Assembly (NCBI GenBank): GCA_947494305.1
Contig: CANLUL010000001.1
Span: forward strand, 124,001-188,000
Direction: 5' to 3'
DNA from: an uncultured Sphingomonadaceae bacterium
GTDB taxonomy: Bacteria; Pseudomonadota; Alphaproteobacteria; Sphingomonadales; Sphingomonadaceae
DNA length: 64,000 bases
The stretch's first letter is position 1. Every line of letters begins with the position of its first letter. A model generated the notes under the pieces. The model was given only the letters and a program-made list of their open reading frames with translations, was not told where the DNA came from and did no database searches. The position numbers and the translations under genes are program-made. Positions 51,844-63,552 of the stretch are shown in pieces.

Positions 51844-52030
51844 ATCTGTACTTATCGGTCATCTCAAGGCTCTAGCTCAGGGGCGAAAACCAGCGCTTTA
51901 AACTTTGCACAAACTCCAGAAGCATCCAACATAACCTATGACTGAACCTGTATCATTTTACATTGATTTAGGTTGGGGTTAGGGTTGGTGTCAGGGCGTC
52001 GCAAACCGTTACAGTGGGGCATATCCGTGA
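51844..52030. other. Intergenic region before the TIR gene, G-rich
   Basis: 187 bases without a gene. G runs of 2-4 at 51971, 51975, 51982, 51987 and 51994 are spaced by 2-5 bases in the plus strand about 40-60 bases before the TIR start, so a G-quadruplex is conceivable. No clear ribosome site precedes the TIR ATG. Confidence 0.35.
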
Positions 52031-53977
52031 ATGACTGATGGTGAGCAAATAGTTGAAAAAACGAAACACACAGTTTTCGTAAGCTATTCCCACGCCGATC
52101 GTTCCGAAGCGTTACCTATTATCAAAGCGCTGGAAGATGCCGGCTTTAACGTATGGTGGGATGGGTTGATCAAGGGCGGTGTTCACGCTGCTCAAGAGAC
52201 GGCTGATGTATTGGAACGCGCCAGAGCGGTGCTGGTGCTCTGGTCCAAAAATTCCGCTAAGTCTCATTGGGTTCAAGACGAAGCCACGAGAGGTCGGGAT
52301 CGTGGATGCCTGGTTCCGGTATCAATTGATGGTCATGAACCACCGCTGGGTTTCGGTCAATTTCAGTTCATCGACATTTCCGGTAAGAAAAATAATCCCG
52401 GTTCACCTGAAATGCAAAAAGTCTTACATGCGGTGTCCGCGCTGCACGAGGATATTGTTTCCCCGGTACAAATAACTTCACCTGGCGCCCCTCAAGCGCC
52501 TCTGATCGCTCGCCGCAATCTGATCATTGGAGGAACCGCAACCGTTTTGGCCGGGGGTACAATTGCTGCTTGGGTAGGGGGACTATTTGATGGGAAAAGC
52601 CAGCCGAGCAGCATCGCTGTGCTGCCATTCGCCAACCTCAGTCGCGATCCTGAACAGGTTTATTTCTCAGACGGCTTGGCATCCGAAATTCGTTCTGAGT
52701 TATCACGCAATCCGCTTTTACAAATTGTTGGGCAGACTTCTTCGAACAGTTTTCGTGACAAGCAAGATGATGCCAAGTCTATTGCCAAGAAACTAGGTGT
52801 TTCCTTTTTGCTGGATGGCAACGTCCAAAAAGCGGATGGTCAGTTAAAGATCACGACTGACTTAATTGATGGTGATACCGGATTGAGCAAATGGGCAGAA
52901 ACATTCGAACGCCCAATCGCAGATGTTTTTGCGGTACAAGAAGAGATTGCTGCGGCAGTTGCCTCGGCAATGTCGGTTGCAATGAGCAGCAAGGGGAAAA
53001 GAGGCGACAGTCATCAAAATGGTGGGACCACGAATATTGCGGCATTTGACGCCTATCTGCGTGGCCGGGATTTGTTCGAATTGCATATTGATGAAACCAG
53101 TGAACGTGCGGCATTGGCAAAATTTGAGGAATCGATCCAAATCGATCCTGAATATGCCGCGCCGCGTGCTGCGCGTGCGCGTGCGCTAGCGGTCATCGCC
53201 AACCAATATGTCAGTAGTGATGAGCGTTTCCGGCTCTATGATGAGGCCGCCGAAGAAGCGACCCGAGCAACCGAGATTGCTCCTGAATTCGCGGCTGGAT
53301 TCAATGCCTTGGGTTATGCGCTCTTTTACGGCAAACTTGACGTAAAAGGCGCGCGCACTCCCTATGATCGAGCCTATGCTTTGGCCAAAAGTGATGTTGA
53401 TGTCTTCAGTCGCTATGCGATTTATTGCGCTCGTACGGGGCGCTTTAGCGAGGCATATAAGGCAATTGATCAGGCATCAAAACTTGACCCGCTTAACGCT
53501 TCGATATTTCGATCGATGGGCACAATCAAATATGCCGGCAAAGAATATGATGAAGCTATTGCTGCGGGTCGCCGTGCTCTTGAGATCAACCCTGAAAGAA
53601 ATAGCGTTCACGGCGATATCGGCGATTCCTACCTCATGCTGGGACAGTTGGGCAAAGCCCGGCAGGAATATGCGTTGGAGAAAAACAGCCTGATCACATT
53701 GACCGGCAAAGCGATATTGGAGCACAGGGAAGGCAATAGAGCGGAGGCGCAAAAGAACTTTGATGGATTGGTCGCAGACCATGGCGACAATGGCTTGTAC
53801 CAACAGGCTCAAGTGCTCGCCCAGTGGGGAGAAACAGACCGCGTTTTCGCAGTGCTCTCGGATGCGCAGAAATTGCGCGATTCCGGGTTGATCTATCTGC
53901 TTCACGATCCCTTTCTTGATCCAGTGCGAGACGATGAGCGTTTTAATGACTTGCTATTACAACTAGGGTTTCTATGA
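52031..53977 (+). CDS. Transmembrane TIR - TolB/FlgO-like - TPR protein
   Basis: A 648-residue protein with three parts. Residues 10-140 are a TIR_2 domain (H-T-V-F-V-S-Y-S-H-A-D ... W-W-D) with W80-V-Q-D-E84, the same spacing as W-V-H-K-E642 of SARM1, whose Glu cleaves NAD. One transmembrane helix follows at 163-186; the A-R-R-N before it predicts a cytosolic TIR domain. Residues 190-320 (S-I-A-V-L-P-F-A-N-L-S-R-D-P-E-Q-V-Y-F-S-D-G-L-A) are a TolB/FlgO-like module also found beside bacterial cyclases, and residues 335-648 are TPR repeats, both then periplasmic. It would be a transmembrane sensor. The lipoprotein at 54006 is just downstream. Confidence 0.9.
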   Translation: MTDGEQIVEKTKHTVFVSYSHADRSEALPIIKALEDAGFNVWWDGLIKGGVHAAQETADVLERARAVLVLWSKNSAKSHWVQDEATRGRDRGCLVPVSIDGHEPPLGFGQFQFIDISGKKNNPGSPEMQKVLHAVSALHEDIVSPVQITSPGAPQAPLIARRNLIIGGTATVLAGGTIAAWVGGLFDGKSQPSSIAVLPFANLSRDPEQVYFSDGLASEIRSELSRNPLLQIVGQTSSNSFRDKQDDAKSIAKKLGVSFLLDGNVQKADGQLKITTDLIDGDTGLSKWAETFERPIADVFAVQEEIAAAVASAMSVAMSSKGKRGDSHQNGGTTNIAAFDAYLRGRDLFELHIDETSERAALAKFEESIQIDPEYAAPRAARARALAVIANQYVSSDERFRLYDEAAEEATRATEIAPEFAAGFNALGYALFYGKLDVKGARTPYDRAYALAKSDVDVFSRYAIYCARTGRFSEAYKAIDQASKLDPLNASIFRSMGTIKYAGKEYDEAIAAGRRALEINPERNSVHGDIGDSYLMLGQLGKARQEYALEKNSLITLTGKAILEHREGNRAEAQKNFDGLVADHGDNGLYQQAQVLAQWGETDRVFAVLSDAQKLRDSGLIYLLHDPFLDPVRDDERFNDLLLQLGFL

Positions 53978-54005
53978 TTTTTTTCTCAATATTGGAGGAT
54001 GGATA

Positions 54006-54266
54006 ATGCGTAAGATTTTAACAGGTGCCGTTGTGGCTACTTTGTCTCTCGGCCTTGCTGCTTGCGGCGCTCCTGCTGACGATGCAGCTACCGAGGAAGC
54101 CGCAACCGAAGAAGTTGTCGCGGAAGATGCAATGGCAGAGAGTGTTGCCGAAGAAACTGAGGCGGCTGAAGAAGGTGCGGCAGCAGAAGTATCTGATGAT
54201 CAGGGGTCAAATGATCAGGGATCCAACGACCAAGGGTCTAACGATCAAGGGTCTAACGATCAGTAA
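54006..54266 (+). CDS. Acidic lipoprotein with DQGSN pentapeptide repeats
   Basis: An 86-residue lipoprotein (lipobox L-A-A-C, Cys20). After it come about 40 residues of Ala/Glu/Asp/Val, then four DQGSN pentapeptides and a final DQ. The repeat copies differ at silent codon positions, so the amino-acid pattern seems to be kept by selection. It is similar in composition to the lipoprotein at 221. GGAGGA lies just ahead of the ATG. It starts 28 bases after the TIR protein stop and could be read with it; a terminator follows. Confidence 0.82.
   Translation: MRKILTGAVVATLSLGLAACGAPADDAATEEAATEEVVAEDAMAESVAEETEAAEEGAAAEVSDDQGSNDQGSNDQGSNDQGSNDQ
54198..54263 (+). repeat. 15-base tandem repeat in the lipoprotein gene
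   Basis: Four and two-fifths copies of a 15-base unit coding for D-Q-G-S-N. The units differ by one to four bases, mostly silent. Copy number may vary between strains. Confidence 0.9.
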
Positions 54267-54289
54267 GTTTCCACAAGAATAACGCGAAA

Positions 54290-54315
54290 AAGGTCCGTTT
54301 ATCCGGGCCTTTTTT
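54290..54315. terminator. Terminator between lipoprotein and protease genes
   Basis: AGGTCCG (54291-54297) pairs with CGGGCCT (54304-54310, one G-U pair) around a TTTATC loop. A T run follows on the right and an A run precedes on the left, so it can serve both convergent genes. Confidence 0.85.
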
Positions 54316-54329
54316 GTGCCTTTAAGTCG

Positions 54330-56231
54330 TTACCGTTTCTTGACCTGACCACTTACAAAGCTGCGCTTCGCCGTTTTGATCCAGCTGGAATATTGCATAA
54401 CATCTACAAATACCGACGGATTTTGACGGTGCCTTCCCGCTTTAGCCCCGCAACCGATACCCCATGATACCAAGCCGATCTGAACCTTCCTGCGGCCGAC
54501 CCAACGGATTACCGGACCTCCACTATCTCCACGGCAACTGAATGTATTACCGCTACTCACCGATGCCTGATTTCTTGGCGGTGAAGTGGCGCAAATGCTC
54601 TTACTGTTCACGCTGGCATATTTGTTTATGCGTCTGCATTCTGCCAGGCCCATGGCCATTAAGTTTCCTTTTCTCAGGTCACTGACATATGCCTGAGGGC
54701 GTCCTTCACTCAGCTCGGGACGTTGGCCACCCTTTACTTCGCCAGTATATCCCCAGCCCAATACTTCCATAAAATCACCAGCTTTGAGTTTTGGCATATT
54801 GGGCACTGCATCGGGCAATAAAACCGGACGCTGGACTGTCCGGCGGTTTAGCGGTTTGATTTTGAGCAAGGCAATATCATTGGGCGGGCGTCCTGGGCGA
54901 TATCCTTTATGTACCACCACAGAATCTATCAAATAGGTTTTTCCACCCCGCGCCAGACTTTGTGTCCCAACCCGCACCCGACGGTCTTTCAAAACGCGAT
55001 TATTGTTCGTGAACTGACCTTTTGCGACACAGTGCGCTGCGGTCAAAACGATGTTCTGAGCGATCAATGAGCCGCCACAGCGATGTTGCCGTTGGTATTT
55101 TTTAAGCTTCCAGAGAAACTTACTTTTGCTTTTTGGCAGTCGCTTATCCGCGGCGATCTGTGCTTTGGTATAAGGTACGTTTGAGAAGATCTCCACTTGC
55201 CAAGGTGCATATCCAGCCGGAACCCAGACCCCTCCGCCGACATATCCTGTATCGCCAGTTGTTCCATAATAACTATCTACCGACGCATTCCAATTCGAAT
55301 CAGAATTCCAGGCTGTAGTCGGGAGTGATGCATCATATTTCCCCAGAATAGTACCGCATAGCAGGAGTTCCAGAACGCTCTTGCAGTCTTCTTTGTTTAT
55401 CGCACCAGCATCTCCCGAAACTAGCAGATTTTCGTTGATTGGTGTATCGGATGCAATGGTAAGAAAATTATATTTCCCAGCCTTTTTGAATGCGAAAGAT
55501 GGGTCATTAAATTCTAACTGTGCGGTCTGACCCGGAGTTATTGGGCTGTCGCTAGCCGTCCAATACACCCACTCAATTTCATTGTCCGGTCTTGTCATCA
55601 GTATATATACGAATTGCGACTTTTCATGATCGTTAAGGAAATTCAAAAACAGGGGTTGGCCCGCTGCCATTGTTTTTGAATTTGCAGCATCAGCTGTATA
55701 ATAGCTCTTGCGGTGATGCACTTGAAGATAGACTTTCATTTTCCATGTGCTTATTCTCGCGAGTTCCTTACGCCGAACTATTTTTCGCAATTCTTGATCG
55801 AGTTCAGCGGCAAAACTACCATCGTCGAGTCTACCGATAAATGCTGGTTCCGCGAGCGCGGGCACATCAAATCGAGGGACTTGCGAAAAGCCTCTATACG
55901 CTGAGCTTGCAACCGGATTGTTCATGTCGACTAGGAAAAAGTTACCGGGATATTCAGGATCAGCAGTGATTTCGAACTCACTCGGCCAACCAACTCGGAC
56001 ACGCGGGTTCGCGCGCAGTATTTTCTCTATCTCAGCCATATTGTCGCCGAGCTCTTCACGCATCCCGATAGCGATTTTGCCTTCTACCAGGTTGGGATTT
56101 TTTTCGCCAACGATGATTGCCGAGGCGGGCGATACCCAGAGCGTGAAAACCAAAATGGCAGCGCAGAGAATACCAAGCACTCGATCAAAGACGTTTTTCA
56201 AAATAATAAACGCCGCGCCCTGTAACGCCAT
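54330..56231 (-). CDS. Exported trypsin-fold serine protease with N-terminal extension
   Basis: A 633-residue protein. A long signal or anchor (to S-P-A-S-A) is followed by a ~150-residue region without a known motif, a beta-rich region (about 155-275) that resembles DUF4384 domains, and an S1 protease domain (about 340-620) with L-T-A-A-H400-C, N-D452-I-A-L-L-K and G-D-S570-G-G-P. The residue at the position of chymotrypsin 189 is Phe (N-T-F-S-C-R-G-D-S), not Asp or Ser, so cleavage after Lys/Arg is unlikely. The start at 56231 matches the signal peptide; 37 further codons upstream have none. It is divergent from the channel gene. Confidence 0.85.
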   Translation of the reverse strand: MALQGAAFIILKNVFDRVLGILCAAILVFTLWVSPASAIIVGEKNPNLVEGKIAIGMREELGDNMAEIEKILRANPRVRVGWPSEFEITADPEYPGNFFLVDMNNPVASSAYRGFSQVPRFDVPALAEPAFIGRLDDGSFAAELDQELRKIVRRKELARISTWKMKVYLQVHHRKSYYTADAANSKTMAAGQPLFLNFLNDHEKSQFVYILMTRPDNEIEWVYWTASDSPITPGQTAQLEFNDPSFAFKKAGKYNFLTIASDTPINENLLVSGDAGAINKEDCKSVLELLLCGTILGKYDASLPTTAWNSDSNWNASVDSYYGTTGDTGYVGGGVWVPAGYAPWQVEIFSNVPYTKAQIAADKRLPKSKSKFLWKLKKYQRQHRCGGSLIAQNIVLTAAHCVAKGQFTNNNRVLKDRRVRVGTQSLARGGKTYLIDSVVVHKGYRPGRPPNDIALLKIKPLNRRTVQRPVLLPDAVPNMPKLKAGDFMEVLGWGYTGEVKGGQRPELSEGRPQAYVSDLRKGNLMAMGLAECRRINKYASVNSKSICATSPPRNQASVSSGNTFSCRGDSGGPVIRWVGRRKVQIGLVSWGIGCGAKAGRHRQNPSVFVDVMQYSSWIKTAKRSFVSGQVKKR

Positions 56232-56396
56232 AGCTTGTCCCCGCCATTGCTGCCGATTAGATATGTGATCATCCTCGACGAAGAGGGTATAACGAATTGC
56301 AAATAAATGTAAAATACGCAATGTTCGGTCTCTGTAAGTCATTTGTCGGATCGCAACGTACTTGACAAACCCCGTTTCGAAAGCAGGCCGGACTTT

Positions 56397-56834
56397 ATGA
56401 AAGAATTAATCGTTGCTCTATCAATCTCCGCGTTGTTGATTGCGGTCTGTCTCTATTTGCATTTTAAGGCTTTACGGGCCGGTGCGTTGATGATTGCAAA
56501 GTGGGAGCACAATGTTCGCCGGCCGATGTTGTTAGTGATGACGTTAATTTTCGTAACACATTTGCTGGAGATCATCCTGTTCGCCATTACCATCTGGGCG
56601 ATGGTAAAAACCGGCAACGGTGATCTGGTTGGCGCGCATACTTCAACGATGGCGGATTATTTCTATTTTTCGATTGGGTCCTACACCACACTTGGTATCG
56701 GCGATATCACGCCAGAGGGGCCTATTCGCGTCGTCGTGGGGATAGAAGCGTTGACGGGTCTGCTGCTTATCGCGTGGAGCGCATCCTTCACCTATTTGAC
56801 GATGGAACGCATCTGGGCACCAGAAAAGCGATGA
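56397..56834 (+). CDS. Small potassium-channel-like membrane protein
   Basis: A 145-residue protein with three or four helices (about 3-22, 43-70, and after the pore at 108-128) and a pore loop F-S-I-G-S-Y-T-T-L-G-I-G-D-I-T-P-E-G. T-L-G-I-G-D is the potassium filter T-x-G-Y-G-D with Ile replacing Tyr, so ion selectivity may differ. There is no regulatory RCK or cyclic-nucleotide domain. The ATG at 56397 starts the first helix; a TTG at 56343 is less likely. It converges on the SLOG-SLATT gene with a 12-base gap and is divergent from the protease. Confidence 0.85.
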   Translation: MKELIVALSISALLIAVCLYLHFKALRAGALMIAKWEHNVRRPMLLVMTLIFVTHLLEIILFAITIWAMVKTGNGDLVGAHTSTMADYFYFSIGSYTTLGIGDITPEGPIRVVVGIEALTGLLLIAWSASFTYLTMERIWAPEKR

Positions 56835-56846
56835 TCACGATTGGCA

Positions 56847-58838
56847 CTAAACCGGAACGGTTATGTGCTTGCCGCTGAATACCGCCTGCCAATTCTCAAT
56901 TTCCGCGACGACGACATCATCGGCGGCATGCACCAATTCGGCGACCTGATCATAGCTCAACATATCATCGGGCGCTGACTGGAGCAGCGCAATACGTCCG
57001 GCAATCGCATCCAGTCGTTCTGCGGTAACTTCTGATATCGCCGCAAAGCGTTCAAAATCACCAAAGAAGCGGATTCCAGCAATAGCTCCCCCAAAAGTGG
57101 GGAATAGAACACCCAATAGTGTGAAGGTTTTGGACGATTTGGAAACGATACCAGCATCAATTAATTGCAAGGAAGACCCGGCTTTCAATAACAAATAGCC
57201 AGCAACAGAAATGATCGCGAGTTTAAAGAGAAGCTCAGAAAATCGATCGAGATTGTGATGAACGGTTTTAAGCCGCTTCGCTTTGTCATAATGATAATCA
57301 CGCTGCGGCGTCACATGGCTGTCCAATAGCGTCGAAAGAAAATGACGCAGATATCCGTCTGTGATTTTGGCATTTGGCAAGCCGATATCTCTTAGTGCTT
57401 GGCGTACGTACCATTCCGGCCAGCTTGTATCGGTGCCTTTTGGCCAGCGTCCGGGTGCGCGCGCCACTCCGAGCATCAGCAGCATCGGACTGTGGCGAAA
57501 ATATTCCGCTACCCGCCGTGTCTCAAACCATCGGCCATGCCAACGATATTTCTGGCCGCGCCAGGTAATGACTACAATCGCGATGAGAAGAAGAAACTCG
57601 AACAGTGCAAAGCCCCACTTCTGCTCCGCTGGAACCAAAGGCAGATATAAAACCCCGCCCACAATGGCCAGACCCGACAACAAGAAATTGACAATCATCC
57701 CTCCGCGATAGTGATCGGAAAGGCGTGCCGAAATGCCATCGGCCCAGGCAAAATTTTGCATAGCCTGTTGCTCTATTTTATCCGCCAATCCGGGATCCGC
57801 ATCAGGCAAGTTGCGAGCGGTGTCTAAAACATCCGCGCCGCTACCGGTGCCTATTTCATCGGGCTTCTCATAAGTCTGGACAATCGATCGAAATGGCTTG
57901 CCATCTCCGCCGAACATCGCCTCAATTCGCCGATATCCGTGCGTTAATCGGGCACTGCGGTCATACCAACGGGCTTTTCGAAGCGCGGAGAGGCCTTCAT
58001 GGGCATCGCTTTTATCAATGGGCGTATCACGCGGGAAAATAACATCACTGACTATTGACTGCATTTCCTCAATGCGGTCCTGATTTGGGGAATTGCACTG
58101 CATCAACGCTAGCGATTCCGGAGCATGCAGGATGCGCCAGTCATCCGGGCTTTCCGGATCGATCCATATCACTGGAGCACCGAGGTCCAATGCCGTTGCA
58201 ATTGTATGGCCGGTGCCACCGGGGCTAGCGGATGATTTTCCGTCCCATATGCCAATTATCAAATCCGACTGCTCGATCAAAATTCTTCCAGCAAGAGCCG
58301 CACGCTTTGCACTTTCAAGTGTAAATGTCTGGGCTAGTTCAAAATTATCGGGCGCGTCCAGTTTGGACAGGTAAAGCTGCGTGATGGCGTCATCCTGATC
58401 CGCAAGCTCAAACGTCTTTGCGTTTCCGGTCAGTTTGATAATTTCGCTGGCTCGTCTCTGGGTGTCAGTGTCTTTCGCAGAATCGCCGGACAACAATGCA
58501 CGAGCGTCATCGCCGTTGACCGGCAGTGCGTTGATTGCGGTATTCAATCGCGCGCCAAAAGGAAGAGGACTGATTAACTCCCAACCTCGAGCCAGCGCCA
58601 TTTCCGCCGCCGCTTGATCGGTGCCGTCAACCATCAACGTATGCAACCGAGTTGGAGCAAGAGATGCGGGGCCAAGAAGCAAATCTGTTTGGCTCAGAAT
58701 TTGCTCAATCTGGTCAAAAATACCCGCGATGACGATACTGATCTGTTTAGCATTTTTCGCATATCCTTCATGGGATGCACGATGGCCGGTCACGCCAATA
58801 CTGAAACGAACTTTTGGTGGCATTGGCGGAGATGTCAT
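56847..58838 (-). CDS. SLOG domain fused to SLATT-like membrane module
   Basis: A 663-residue protein. Residues 10-230 are a SLOG-like Rossmann domain: V-R-F-S-I-G-V-T-G-H-R, G-T-D-Q-A-A-A-E-M-A-L-A-R-G-W-E-L, and S-D-L-I-I-G-I-W-D-G-K followed by P-G-G-T-G-H-T-I-A-T-A, the ligand loop of the fold. After a linker come four helices in two pairs (about 381-400 and 409-426; 534-552 and 572-591), each with a basic/aromatic soluble segment, resembling SLATT/DUF4231-type modules. SLOG and SLATT are described in predicted nucleotide-activated conflict systems. ATG at 58838 is preferred to the TTG 12 codons earlier; the site is weak. Confidence 0.78.
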   Translation of the reverse strand: MTSPPMPPKVRFSIGVTGHRASHEGYAKNAKQISIVIAGIFDQIEQILSQTDLLLGPASLAPTRLHTLMVDGTDQAAAEMALARGWELISPLPFGARLNTAINALPVNGDDARALLSGDSAKDTDTQRRASEIIKLTGNAKTFELADQDDAITQLYLSKLDAPDNFELAQTFTLESAKRAALAGRILIEQSDLIIGIWDGKSSASPGGTGHTIATALDLGAPVIWIDPESPDDWRILHAPESLALMQCNSPNQDRIEEMQSIVSDVIFPRDTPIDKSDAHEGLSALRKARWYDRSARLTHGYRRIEAMFGGDGKPFRSIVQTYEKPDEIGTGSGADVLDTARNLPDADPGLADKIEQQAMQNFAWADGISARLSDHYRGGMIVNFLLSGLAIVGGVLYLPLVPAEQKWGFALFEFLLLIAIVVITWRGQKYRWHGRWFETRRVAEYFRHSPMLLMLGVARAPGRWPKGTDTSWPEWYVRQALRDIGLPNAKITDGYLRHFLSTLLDSHVTPQRDYHYDKAKRLKTVHHNLDRFSELLFKLAIISVAGYLLLKAGSSLQLIDAGIVSKSSKTFTLLGVLFPTFGGAIAGIRFFGDFERFAAISEVTAERLDAIAGRIALLQSAPDDMLSYDQVAELVHAADDVVVAEIENWQAVFSGKHITVPV

Positions 58839-58954
58839 ATCAAATGATCCACTGAGTTCGAGATTTAGATCCAAAAATAGACTTTCTACCGTATCAAGTT
58901 TCTAACATTCGACAAGTTAAGTCAGAACGGGAATGATTGGAGGTACTCGTATCA

Positions 58955-58974
58955 GCACGCTGGCTGAAGCGTGC
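58955..58974. other. Hairpin after nadB
   Basis: GCACGCT (58955-58961) and AGCGTGC (58968-58974) form a seven-pair stem with a GGCTGA loop just past the nadB stop. It has no T run, so it may be an imperfect terminator or an mRNA end protector. Confidence 0.4.
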
Positions 58975-58985
58975 AATAGGAATTT

Positions 58986-61645: not shown

Positions 61646-62203
61646 GTGAAACATGTGGGGACCAGAAAACAGGCGATTCAGCCTGGAACGAAAAGTGCGG
61701 CCATCGCGCTTTGTGTGTGCTCTTGTCTATTGTTCGCCCAATCTGCAACAGCGCAGACGTCTAGCGGCCAGACAAATGCAGCCGTTCGCCAACCGCTCAC
61801 CGTCGTCAAAAATAGCGATCTTGATTTTGGGGCATTTGTTGCCGGAACGACAACCAGTGAATTTCGCATTGATGCGGTTACCGGCGCAATGGCGCAGTTA
61901 AATGGCAATGCCATTGCAATGGGCGGAACGACCTCACGGGCATCGTTTACCGCTACTGGAACACCATTCCAACAAGCCAATATTCGGCGGTCACAAAACA
62001 GCATCAATATCGTTCGCGACGGCGGATCTGAAACCATGCGGGTCAACGATTTTTGGCTGGGAAATAGAGCAGGGTTGCGCGACCAAATTTTGGATGCGTC
62101 GGGTCAGGCTACTTATTTTGTTGGCGGAAAATTACGTATTCTGGCCAACCAGGCACCGGGAACGTATCGCGGCACTTTCAATGTCACGATTGAATATCAA
62201 TAA
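61646..62203 (+). CDS. DUF4402 exported protein, copy 1
   Basis: A 185-residue protein with a signal ending S-A-T-A-Q, then a beta-sandwich with the family markers D-L-D-F-G-A-F-V-A-G-T near residue 60 and a terminal P-G-T-Y-R-G-T-F-N-V-T-I-E-Y-Q. DUF4402 proteins look like secreted or surface fibre-type domains; the role is unknown. The start is GTG with GGGA ahead. It is the first of three tandem paralogues. Confidence 0.9.
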   Translation: MKHVGTRKQAIQPGTKSAAIALCVCSCLLFAQSATAQTSSGQTNAAVRQPLTVVKNSDLDFGAFVAGTTTSEFRIDAVTGAMAQLNGNAIAMGGTTSRASFTATGTPFQQANIRRSQNSINIVRDGGSETMRVNDFWLGNRAGLRDQILDASGQATYFVGGKLRILANQAPGTYRGTFNVTIEYQ

Positions 62204-62399
62204 AATTATCGGGCTTTCAGTCCGTCACTTCAACAATTTTTAGAAAATCCTTTCGATGGCGTGGATTGACCATTTTTCGCTAGTGGCCGGTTTTCTGTGT
62301 CGTTCTTGGTTAAAATTGGTTTTACCATCTAAATCCACCTTATTTTCTTGGATGGCTCCTAAATCCATTTGCGTGGGACATTAAAGGGGCCAGAAGCGG

Positions 62400-62912
62400 A
62401 TGAAAAAATCCAGATACAAGCGCGCAATCGTGAGCGTGCCTGCAGCATTTATAGCCATTCAAGGCGCGCATGCGGCCAATGGTGGTGGTGATTCGACTGC
62501 CAATATTCGGCAACCGGTATCGGTAACGAAGACGGCCGATCTTGATTTCGGAACATTTGTACCAGGCACTGCAAATAGTGTTTTTCGTATCAATCCGCGT
62601 AACGGCAATATGACCCAACGCAGCGGCGATGCAATTGCATTTGGCGGTACTCCGACGCCTGCCAGCTTTGATGTAACCGGAACAGCCGGTTTGCGCGTAC
62701 AGATAACGCGTAATCAGAATCGCATTTTTATCACGCGCGATGGCGGTACCGAAACGATGCGGATCAATCGATTTACCTATGATCGCCGTCGCAAGCGGTT
62801 AAATGCTGCGGGTGAAGCAAATTTTGCCGTTGGTGGTCAGATTCGTATTGGAGCCAATCAAGCCGCAGGGACTTATCGTGGTACATTTGGTGTAACGGTT
62901 GAATATCAATAA
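62400..62912 (+). CDS. DUF4402 exported protein, copy 2
   Basis: A 170-residue paralogue with a signal ending H-A-A-N, then D-L-D-F-G-T-F-V-P-G-T and the end A-G-T-Y-R-G-T-F-G-V-T-V-E-Y-Q. It also has the shared mid-segment I-T-R-D-G-G-T-E-T-M-R-I-N. AAAGGGG lies before the ATG. It is separated from copy 1 by about 200 bases, in which a pyrimidine/purine palindrome-like stretch around 62330-62375 repeats the words TAAATCCA, so it probably has its own promoter. Confidence 0.9.
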   Translation: MKKSRYKRAIVSVPAAFIAIQGAHAANGGGDSTANIRQPVSVTKTADLDFGTFVPGTANSVFRINPRNGNMTQRSGDAIAFGGTPTPASFDVTGTAGLRVQITRNQNRIFITRDGGTETMRINRFTYDRRRKRLNAAGEANFAVGGQIRIGANQAAGTYRGTFGVTVEYQ

Positions 62913-63009
62913 GCGCAACAAAATGTGGAGTGAACTGGAAAAAGTTAATATCGGTTAACCAGTCAGAATAGCATTTCTTTACCATTGGCCTCGTAAAACC
63001 GATATCACG

Positions 63010-63552
63010 ATGACCAGAGACCAGTTTTTTTCGCGTGCTATCGCATGCCTGTTGTTCGTTTTGGCCGCACTGACCAGTGCGCCGGCTGCCTATGCCCAAA
63101 CATCAAATGGCGATGCAACGGCGGTCACCATTGGACCTATGTCCGTGGTCAAAATTGAAGATTTGAATTTTGGCAATTTGGTTGCAGGAACTACCGCTGG
63201 AACGATGACTGTCAATACCGCCAATGGCAACGTCAACGTGACCGGCGGTGTTGTGCGCGCTGGTGGTGTAACAAGCCGTGCCAATTTTATCATCTATGGC
63301 CCGCAAAATCAGATTGTGCGGATTAGAATTCCTTCGACGATTTTGATAAGTCGCAATGGCGGCGGCGCTAATATGCGCATTGATCAAATGTCAGTCGGCA
63401 ACGCCAACCGAAGTCTGGGAACAAATGTTTTGGGCAGGTTGAGTAGGACCGGTGTTTTTAATCTTACGGTCGGGGGGCGTTTGCGGGTTAACGCGAACCA
63501 GCAAGAAGGCGGCTACACCGGAACATTTGATATGACGGTTGACTATTTTTAG
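63010..63552 (+). CDS. DUF4402 exported protein, copy 3
   Basis: A 180-residue paralogue with a signal ending A-Y-A-Q-T, then D-L-N-F-G-N-L-V-A-G-T and the end G-G-Y-T-G-T-F-D-M-T-V-D-Y-F. It is the most diverged of the three. GTTAA and GGTTAACC occur 50-65 bases before its start, similar to words upstream of copy 1. It is followed by the zinc-finger gene with a 67-base gap. Confidence 0.88.
   Translation: MTRDQFFSRAIACLLFVLAALTSAPAAYAQTSNGDATAVTIGPMSVVKIEDLNFGNLVAGTTAGTMTVNTANGNVNVTGGVVRAGGVTSRANFIIYGPQNQIVRIRIPSTILISRNGGGANMRIDQMSVGNANRSLGTNVLGRLSRTGVFNLTVGGRLRVNANQQEGGYTGTFDMTVDYF

Follow-up and report, generated by a model that had tools for sequence, protein, structure and literature searches.

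SLOG-SLATT, a candidate membrane effector in a gene cassette with TIR, protease and K+-channel-like partners in Sphingomonadaceae

A five-gene cassette between penicillin acylase and nadB

The window analysed here is a stretch of 64,000 nucleotides from an uncultured Sphingomonadaceae bacterium, and positions without a locus prefix refer to it. Between a penicillin acylase gene and nadB it carries an inserted block of five genes, one of which encodes a SLOG-SLATT fusion protein, P0001 (Table 1). Papers are cited by PMC number.

Table 1. Features of the cassette and of related loci
Feature	Position	Strand	Support or extent
TIR1: TIR - signal-anchor-like helix - TPR protein	52031..53977	+	Pfam TIR_2 E 3.5e-21, TPRs
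Small acidic lipoprotein, SNDQG repeats, 86 aa	54006..54266	+	ORF
Trypsin-like protease	54330..56342	-	Pfam Trypsin E 2.4e-32
2TM K+-channel-like protein, 145 aa, filter TTLGIGD	56397..56834	+	Pfam Ion_trans_2 E 2e-10
SLOG-SLATT fusion protein (P0001), 663 aa	56847..58838	-	
SLOG (YpsA-like) Rossmann domain	58119..58817	-	~residues 8-240
First 2TM SLATT-like unit	57492..57752	-	~residues 363-449
Second 2TM SLATT_1-like unit	56883..57242	-	~residues 533-652
Whole inserted cassette, penicillin acylase/nadB gap	51844..58985	.	flank homology
TIR1 sensor half + winged helix	L116:9380-11455	-	Pfam
TIR1 sensor half + guanylate cyclase	L123:4290-6395	-	Pfam
TIR1 sensor half + winged helix	L159:2734-4644	+	reading
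TIR1 sensor half + membrane helices	L160:3362-5179	-	reading
TIR1 sensor half + membrane helices	L161:355-2136	-	reading
SLOG-SLATT beside RyR-domain protein	L177:5787-7889	-	
SLOG-SLATT beside RyR-domain protein	L178:6343-8742	-	

The N-terminal half of P0001 has the Rossmann fold of SLOG domains; its best fold matches are SLOG proteins, and it carries the motifs GxTGHR (residues 15-20), GxD (72-74), WDG (198-200) and GGT (207-209). In the YpsA clade a GxD/E signature is predicted to bind substrate (PMC6459960), and P0001 bears this signature because it has G72-x-D74, which is kept in both clades of the family (alignment of 67 sequences). The helical half shows what is expected of SLATT proteins, a 2TM pair with helices matched by SLATT models. 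Its first 2TM unit gives weak SLATT_3 and DUF4231 matches, with which hydropathy agrees, and in relatives L079 and L172 this unit matches SLATT_1. The second matches NCBIfam SLATT_1 at E 3.7e-8, below the cutoff, and in relative L016 the match stands above the curated cutoff; 13 of 14 family members match SLATT_1 at E<=0.1. In fold comparison the helical half had no match clear of the helical background. Pore formation by SLATT is a prediction of the literature. PADLOC has no model for P0001, and no known defence gene was recognised adjoining it.

The first-pass annotation had read this gene as a SLOG domain joined in one chain to two SLATT-like helix pairs with no SMODS cyclase adjoining. Domain and helix pairs are borne out, and among the 8 ORFs scanned as neighbours there is no CD-NTase (SMODS) gene of the CBASS kind. 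Its refuting alternatives, a better fit of the N-terminal part to a different Rossmann family or helices of a common transporter, did not turn up: SLOG proteins remain the best folds, and the helical half has no clear match.

TIR1 contains, besides its hydrophobic helix and TPRs, a TolB-like region (by reading). Glu84 of its TIR domain, in S-x-x-S-x-W-V-x-x-E, is present in 36/36 aligned sequences, two cluster members shorter than 400 aa being excluded. A twin-arginine and a hydrophobic helix follow the TIR domain in 31 of 36 TIR1 sequences and in 13 of 14 further TIR1-family proteins, the fourteenth (L116) having no TIR. The position of these elements suggests that the TIR domain is cytosolic and the TPR half outside. 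TIR1 is predicted from sequence to be both an NADase signal generator and a sensor. The protease has a signal-peptide-like start (likely ATG near 56231) and an intact triad, H437/D489/S607, found in 28/28 family rows, so that the catalytic residues of both enzymes look intact. The filter TTLG[IVL]GD is kept in 19/19 channel homologues adjoining SLOG-SLATT. The repeats of the lipoprotein, whose gene lies between those for TIR1 and the protease, are encoded by a 15-bp tandem array at 54198-54263; similar small lipoprotein genes adjoin TIR1 in L012 and L014 and were found by ORF reading in L116 and L117. Further along the window, 61646-63552 encodes three tandem small secreted-looking proteins, alike by eye, the first of which matches DUF4402.

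In 20 of 31 genus relatives no more than 5 kb separates penicillin acylase from nadB. The gap between their matched ranges is 7148 bp here versus as little as 122 bp in G031 and 134 bp in G011. In 20/20 sites flank homology stops about 60 bases or less from both stop codons, and none of these sites has cassette DNA between acylase and nadB. Several of them hold other genes; the cargo differs from species to species, and the site is possibly an insertion hot spot. Cassette genes occur at other places in six genus relatives and in a single genome from a different genus, with both the order and the strands of the genes rearranged. We take the five genes as the unit because flank homology ends at its borders and the cassette sits elsewhere in relatives. 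By these sequence comparisons it is a discrete, moving unit.

Distribution and partners of SLOG-SLATT

SLOG-SLATT was found in 94 of 397 sampled Sphingomonadaceae genomes and 37 of 96 genera, the 94 including a remnant of 29 residues (G105) and some pieces at contig edges. TIR1-family proteins (E<=1e-60) occur in 67 of the 397; SLOG-SLATT accompanies them in 60/67 versus 34/330 other genomes (Fisher 2e-38), with three candidates at most scored per genome and statistics that ignore phylogeny. For TIR-domain genomes only, the figures are 60/64 versus 34/333; the 64 exclude G374, G093 and G127, in which TIR is replaced, and include G329, whose contig end cuts before its TIR. Counted by genus, 24/24 TIR-domain genera have SLOG-SLATT versus 13/72. 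Within the genus of the window (32 genomes) SLOG-SLATT is present in 7, and trypsin and a TIR1-family protein are present in the same 9, of which 8 have the TIR domain; the ninth, G011, has a winged helix instead, and another of the 9, G021, is an incomplete assembly.

The association extends to gene neighbourhood. Within 6.5 kb of SLOG-SLATT (71 loci, window included) the top neighbours are TIR1 (38), trypsin (26) and the channel (19); a second TIR cluster (8 loci) and caspase-like genes (6 loci) rank lower, below some ordinary families. The arrangement of Thoeris-type systems, a TIR adjoining an effector with a nucleotide-sensing domain, is found here. In clade-A genomes with both SLOG-SLATT and TIR1 the two are at most 10 kb apart in 27/36. 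Where they are unlinked in G287 and G128, TIR1 adjoins three genes resembling caspase, CHAT and nSTAND1 (BLAST, reading), and in G060 Pfam finds all three beside TIR1. Such partners are typical of conflict systems. By TIR profile, a TIR-domain ORF is near 42 of 70 loci (clade A 29/42, clade B 13/28). At the other 28 (13 clade A, 15 clade B) no ORF passes the profile; three of these loci (L088, L089, L101) carry a member of the second TIR cluster, and the remaining 25 have no TIR in the stretch compared.

Against the TIR-linked reading stand these TIR-less loci; four TIR-domain genomes (G199, G318, G325, G439) from which SLOG-SLATT is absent, also by family profile; 34 of the 94 SLOG-SLATT genomes, in which no TIR1-family match reaches E<=1e-60; and SLOG-SLATT-negative G007 of the same genus, where a distant match to TIR1 spans residues 14-434 at 30% identity (E 2e-38).

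In four genomes a related sensor bears something other than TIR: a winged helix in G011 of the same genus (sensor 67% identical), a cyclase in G374 (Pfam), winged-helix and membrane-helix forms in G093 and membrane helices in G127 (both by ORF reading). SLOG-SLATT is absent from all four by profile. Replacement of TIR in SLOG-SLATT-negative genomes offers a clean testable prediction. A weak match in G127 was rejected as SLOG-SLATT, being another SLOG protein. As side observations, L160 also carries caspase-like and trypsin-like ORFs, and L156, L157 and L158 encode TPR-SLOG-class III cyclase-like proteins (cyclase part by reading) whose SLOG part weakly matches the P0001 family profile.

In a wider set, SLOG-SLATT occurs in 10 of 385 alphaproteobacterial genomes (E<=1e-15), two of them Sphingomonadaceae (G000, G096). 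Among the eight loci outside this family, L172 and L174 (two genomes, one genus) have it adjoining a TIR-WD40 protein. In L177 and L178 it lies beside a RyR-domain gene; a stop splits the L177 gene, whose RyR-domain neighbour has a weak TrkA_N match, and a patatin gene intervenes in L178. In the other four none of the labelled families was found. On Caballeronia plasmid pSBC2-4 genes for a TIR and a WD40 protein come after a DUF4231-annotated homologue, and in a 1.8-Mb Novosphingobium plasmid record TIR1 adjoins SLOG-SLATT. Since L172, L174 and Caballeronia carry different TIR genes, the TIR partner recurs while the sensor part changes. Annotated phages contain no SLOG-SLATT at E<=1e-5. A homologue on a viral contig (L105:7815-9941, + strand) lies by phage- or gene-transfer-agent-like tail genes (ORF reading).

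What the cassette might do

The first-pass annotation had proposed a self-contained nucleotide-gated membrane effector. A nucleotide-gated membrane effector is supported as likely. The word self-contained is not supported: the gene shares its cassette with four others, among them those for a TIR enzyme, a protease and a channel-like protein, and its presence follows a TIR-domain protein across genomes. Given this company, SLOG-SLATT is probably an immune-like alarm effector rather than a stand-alone one. The reading we favour, with somewhat better than even confidence, gives it the part of membrane effector in a modular cassette for TIR signalling.

The sequences themselves show the domains, the conservation of catalytic residues, the cassette borders, the co-occurrence and the four replacements of TIR on a related sensor; the following steps, with their topology, messenger, membrane effect and possible phage trigger, are what we infer. 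The TPR half of TIR1 and the exported trypsin-like protease would sense stress, perhaps phage or an attack on the envelope. The cytosolic TIR domain would then turn NAD+ into an ADP-ribose-type messenger, which would bind the cytosolic SLOG domain via the conserved GxTGHR, GxD and GGT loops. In response the two 2TM SLATT units would rearrange or oligomerise, making the inner membrane permeable, with the small K+ channel as accessory or co-effector. Growth arrest or cell death would be the outcome. We place the protease and the TPR part upstream because they are kept together where SLOG-SLATT is absent (G011), and we group the channel with SLOG-SLATT because within the genus every genome with the channel also has SLOG-SLATT. 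There is precedent for SLOG sensing in SIR2-SLOG ThsA, whose activators are cADPR isomers produced by a TIR protein (PMC11204291). SLATT is predicted to be an effector of membrane permeability regulated by ADPR derivatives (PMC9503650), and DRT10 needs a SLATT gene to defend against phages (PMC12632851). From the observations above and these analogies, the most economical model is one in which TIR makes a signal of the ADP-ribose type, SLOG senses it and SLATT acts on the membrane.

Other suggestions can be made. If the cassette is a trans-envelope regulator of stress or homeostasis (osmotic, proteolytic) rather than a device for defence or cell death, the signal-peptide or lipobox starts of many neighbouring proteases and the signal-anchor-like helix of TIR1 (by eye, hydropathy), all pointing to the envelope, would be in place, as would DNA-binding or cyclase outputs on related sensors. 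SLATT need not be defensive either, because a DUF4231/SLATT gene of Agrobacterium came from a motility screen (PMC9812332). The patchy distribution of SLOG-SLATT, the changing place and plasmid carriage of the cassette, and its caspase, CHAT and nSTAND1 partners argue the other way. We judge this possibility rather unlikely, and yet the most plausible of the rivals.

SLOG-SLATT could instead sense nucleotides as a subunit of the small K+ channel, giving a ligand-gated K+ conductance whose ligand TIR supplies or removes. SUR pairs with Kir in such a way, and TRPM2 has its SLOG domain ahead of the pore. Close channel homologues (E<=1e-25) are found in 35 of the 397 genomes, 31 of them with SLOG-SLATT, and in the genus in exactly its 7 SLOG-SLATT genomes; genomes with only distant homologues, a negative control, show no enrichment (6/60). 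The invariant filter fits as well, and at seven loci (L057, L082, L083, L086, L089, L091, L101) the channel lies beside SLOG-SLATT with no TIR1 nearby. However, the channel is not obligatory, since 63 of the 94 genomes with SLOG-SLATT lack a close homologue of it; four of the 35 channel genomes have no SLOG-SLATT; and a second-TIR-cluster gene is near four of the seven loci (L082, L086, L089, L101). We judge the subunit role unlikely. Much the same low credence goes to a joint reading in which exported protease and periplasmic TPR part turn on TIR in the cytosol, and the messenger that TIR makes from NAD opens a conductance gated by SLOG and made of the double-SLATT chain and the bare 2TM K+ pore. 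A trans-envelope relay would then couple a prokaryotic ligand-gated K+ channel to innate immunity, with TIR, winged-helix and cyclase outputs swapped freely on one conserved sensor.

Least probable is that SLOG degrades or edits the TIR product, SLOG-SLATT being a membrane-anchored off-switch or immunity factor and not a killer: LOG enzymes have an acidic residue after the GGT motif, which is not conserved in the SLOG alignment (by eye), and an off-switch needs no four-helix membrane part. It draws on LOG-clade SLOG proteins that cleave N-glycosidic bonds and on phage SLOG domains proposed to degrade ADPR signals (PMC9503650).

Relation to known systems

The membrane effector model has relatives among described systems. 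It resembles Thoeris with SIR2-SLOG ThsA, in which the effector SLOG senses a TIR-made cADPR-type messenger (PMC11204291); here SLATT helices replace SIR2 as output, the TIR protein has a hydrophobic helix and TPRs, and protease and channel genes lie alongside. Thoeris with TM-macro ThsA also joins TIR to an effector in the membrane that carries a nucleotide-binding domain (PMC11204291), whereas here SLOG replaces macro and four TM helices are predicted in two SLATT units. SLOG-SLATT has no SIR2 or macro family match, and we do not file the cassette as Thoeris because its effector is SLOG plus SLATT without either.

TIR and 2TM SLATT are encoded together in Firmicutes phages (PMC9503650), but here SLOG and two SLATT units form one chain accompanied by protease and K+-channel-like genes. 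GAP1-N1 conflict systems gather TIR, SLATT, trypsin and caspase effectors in one network (PMC7159879); no GTPase/GAP1 core was noticed here, and SLOG and SLATT are fused. DRT10 (UG17) RT-SLATT systems depend on their SLATT protein for defence against phages (PMC12632851), whereas the genes that recur beside SLOG-SLATT here encode TIR, protease and channel proteins. TRPM2 combines a SLOG domain with a channel; here SLATT units replace the TRP pore. That TIR lies by SLATT, that SLOG senses TIR products and that conflict systems include proteases is already in print (PMC9503650, PMC7159879, PMC11204291). We found no description of the combined cassette in the literature searched, a search outside which the founding SLATT paper lies.

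The cassette ties SLOG-SLATT, a predicted effector class, to a concrete candidate for the source of the signal (TIR) and to a sensor, proteases and a K+-channel-like gene; the unit is compact, relocating and testable. If the model is true, TIR signalling would gain an effector that depolarises the membrane and senses through SLOG, and TRPM2 and other channels gated by SLOG would have a counterpart in bacteria.
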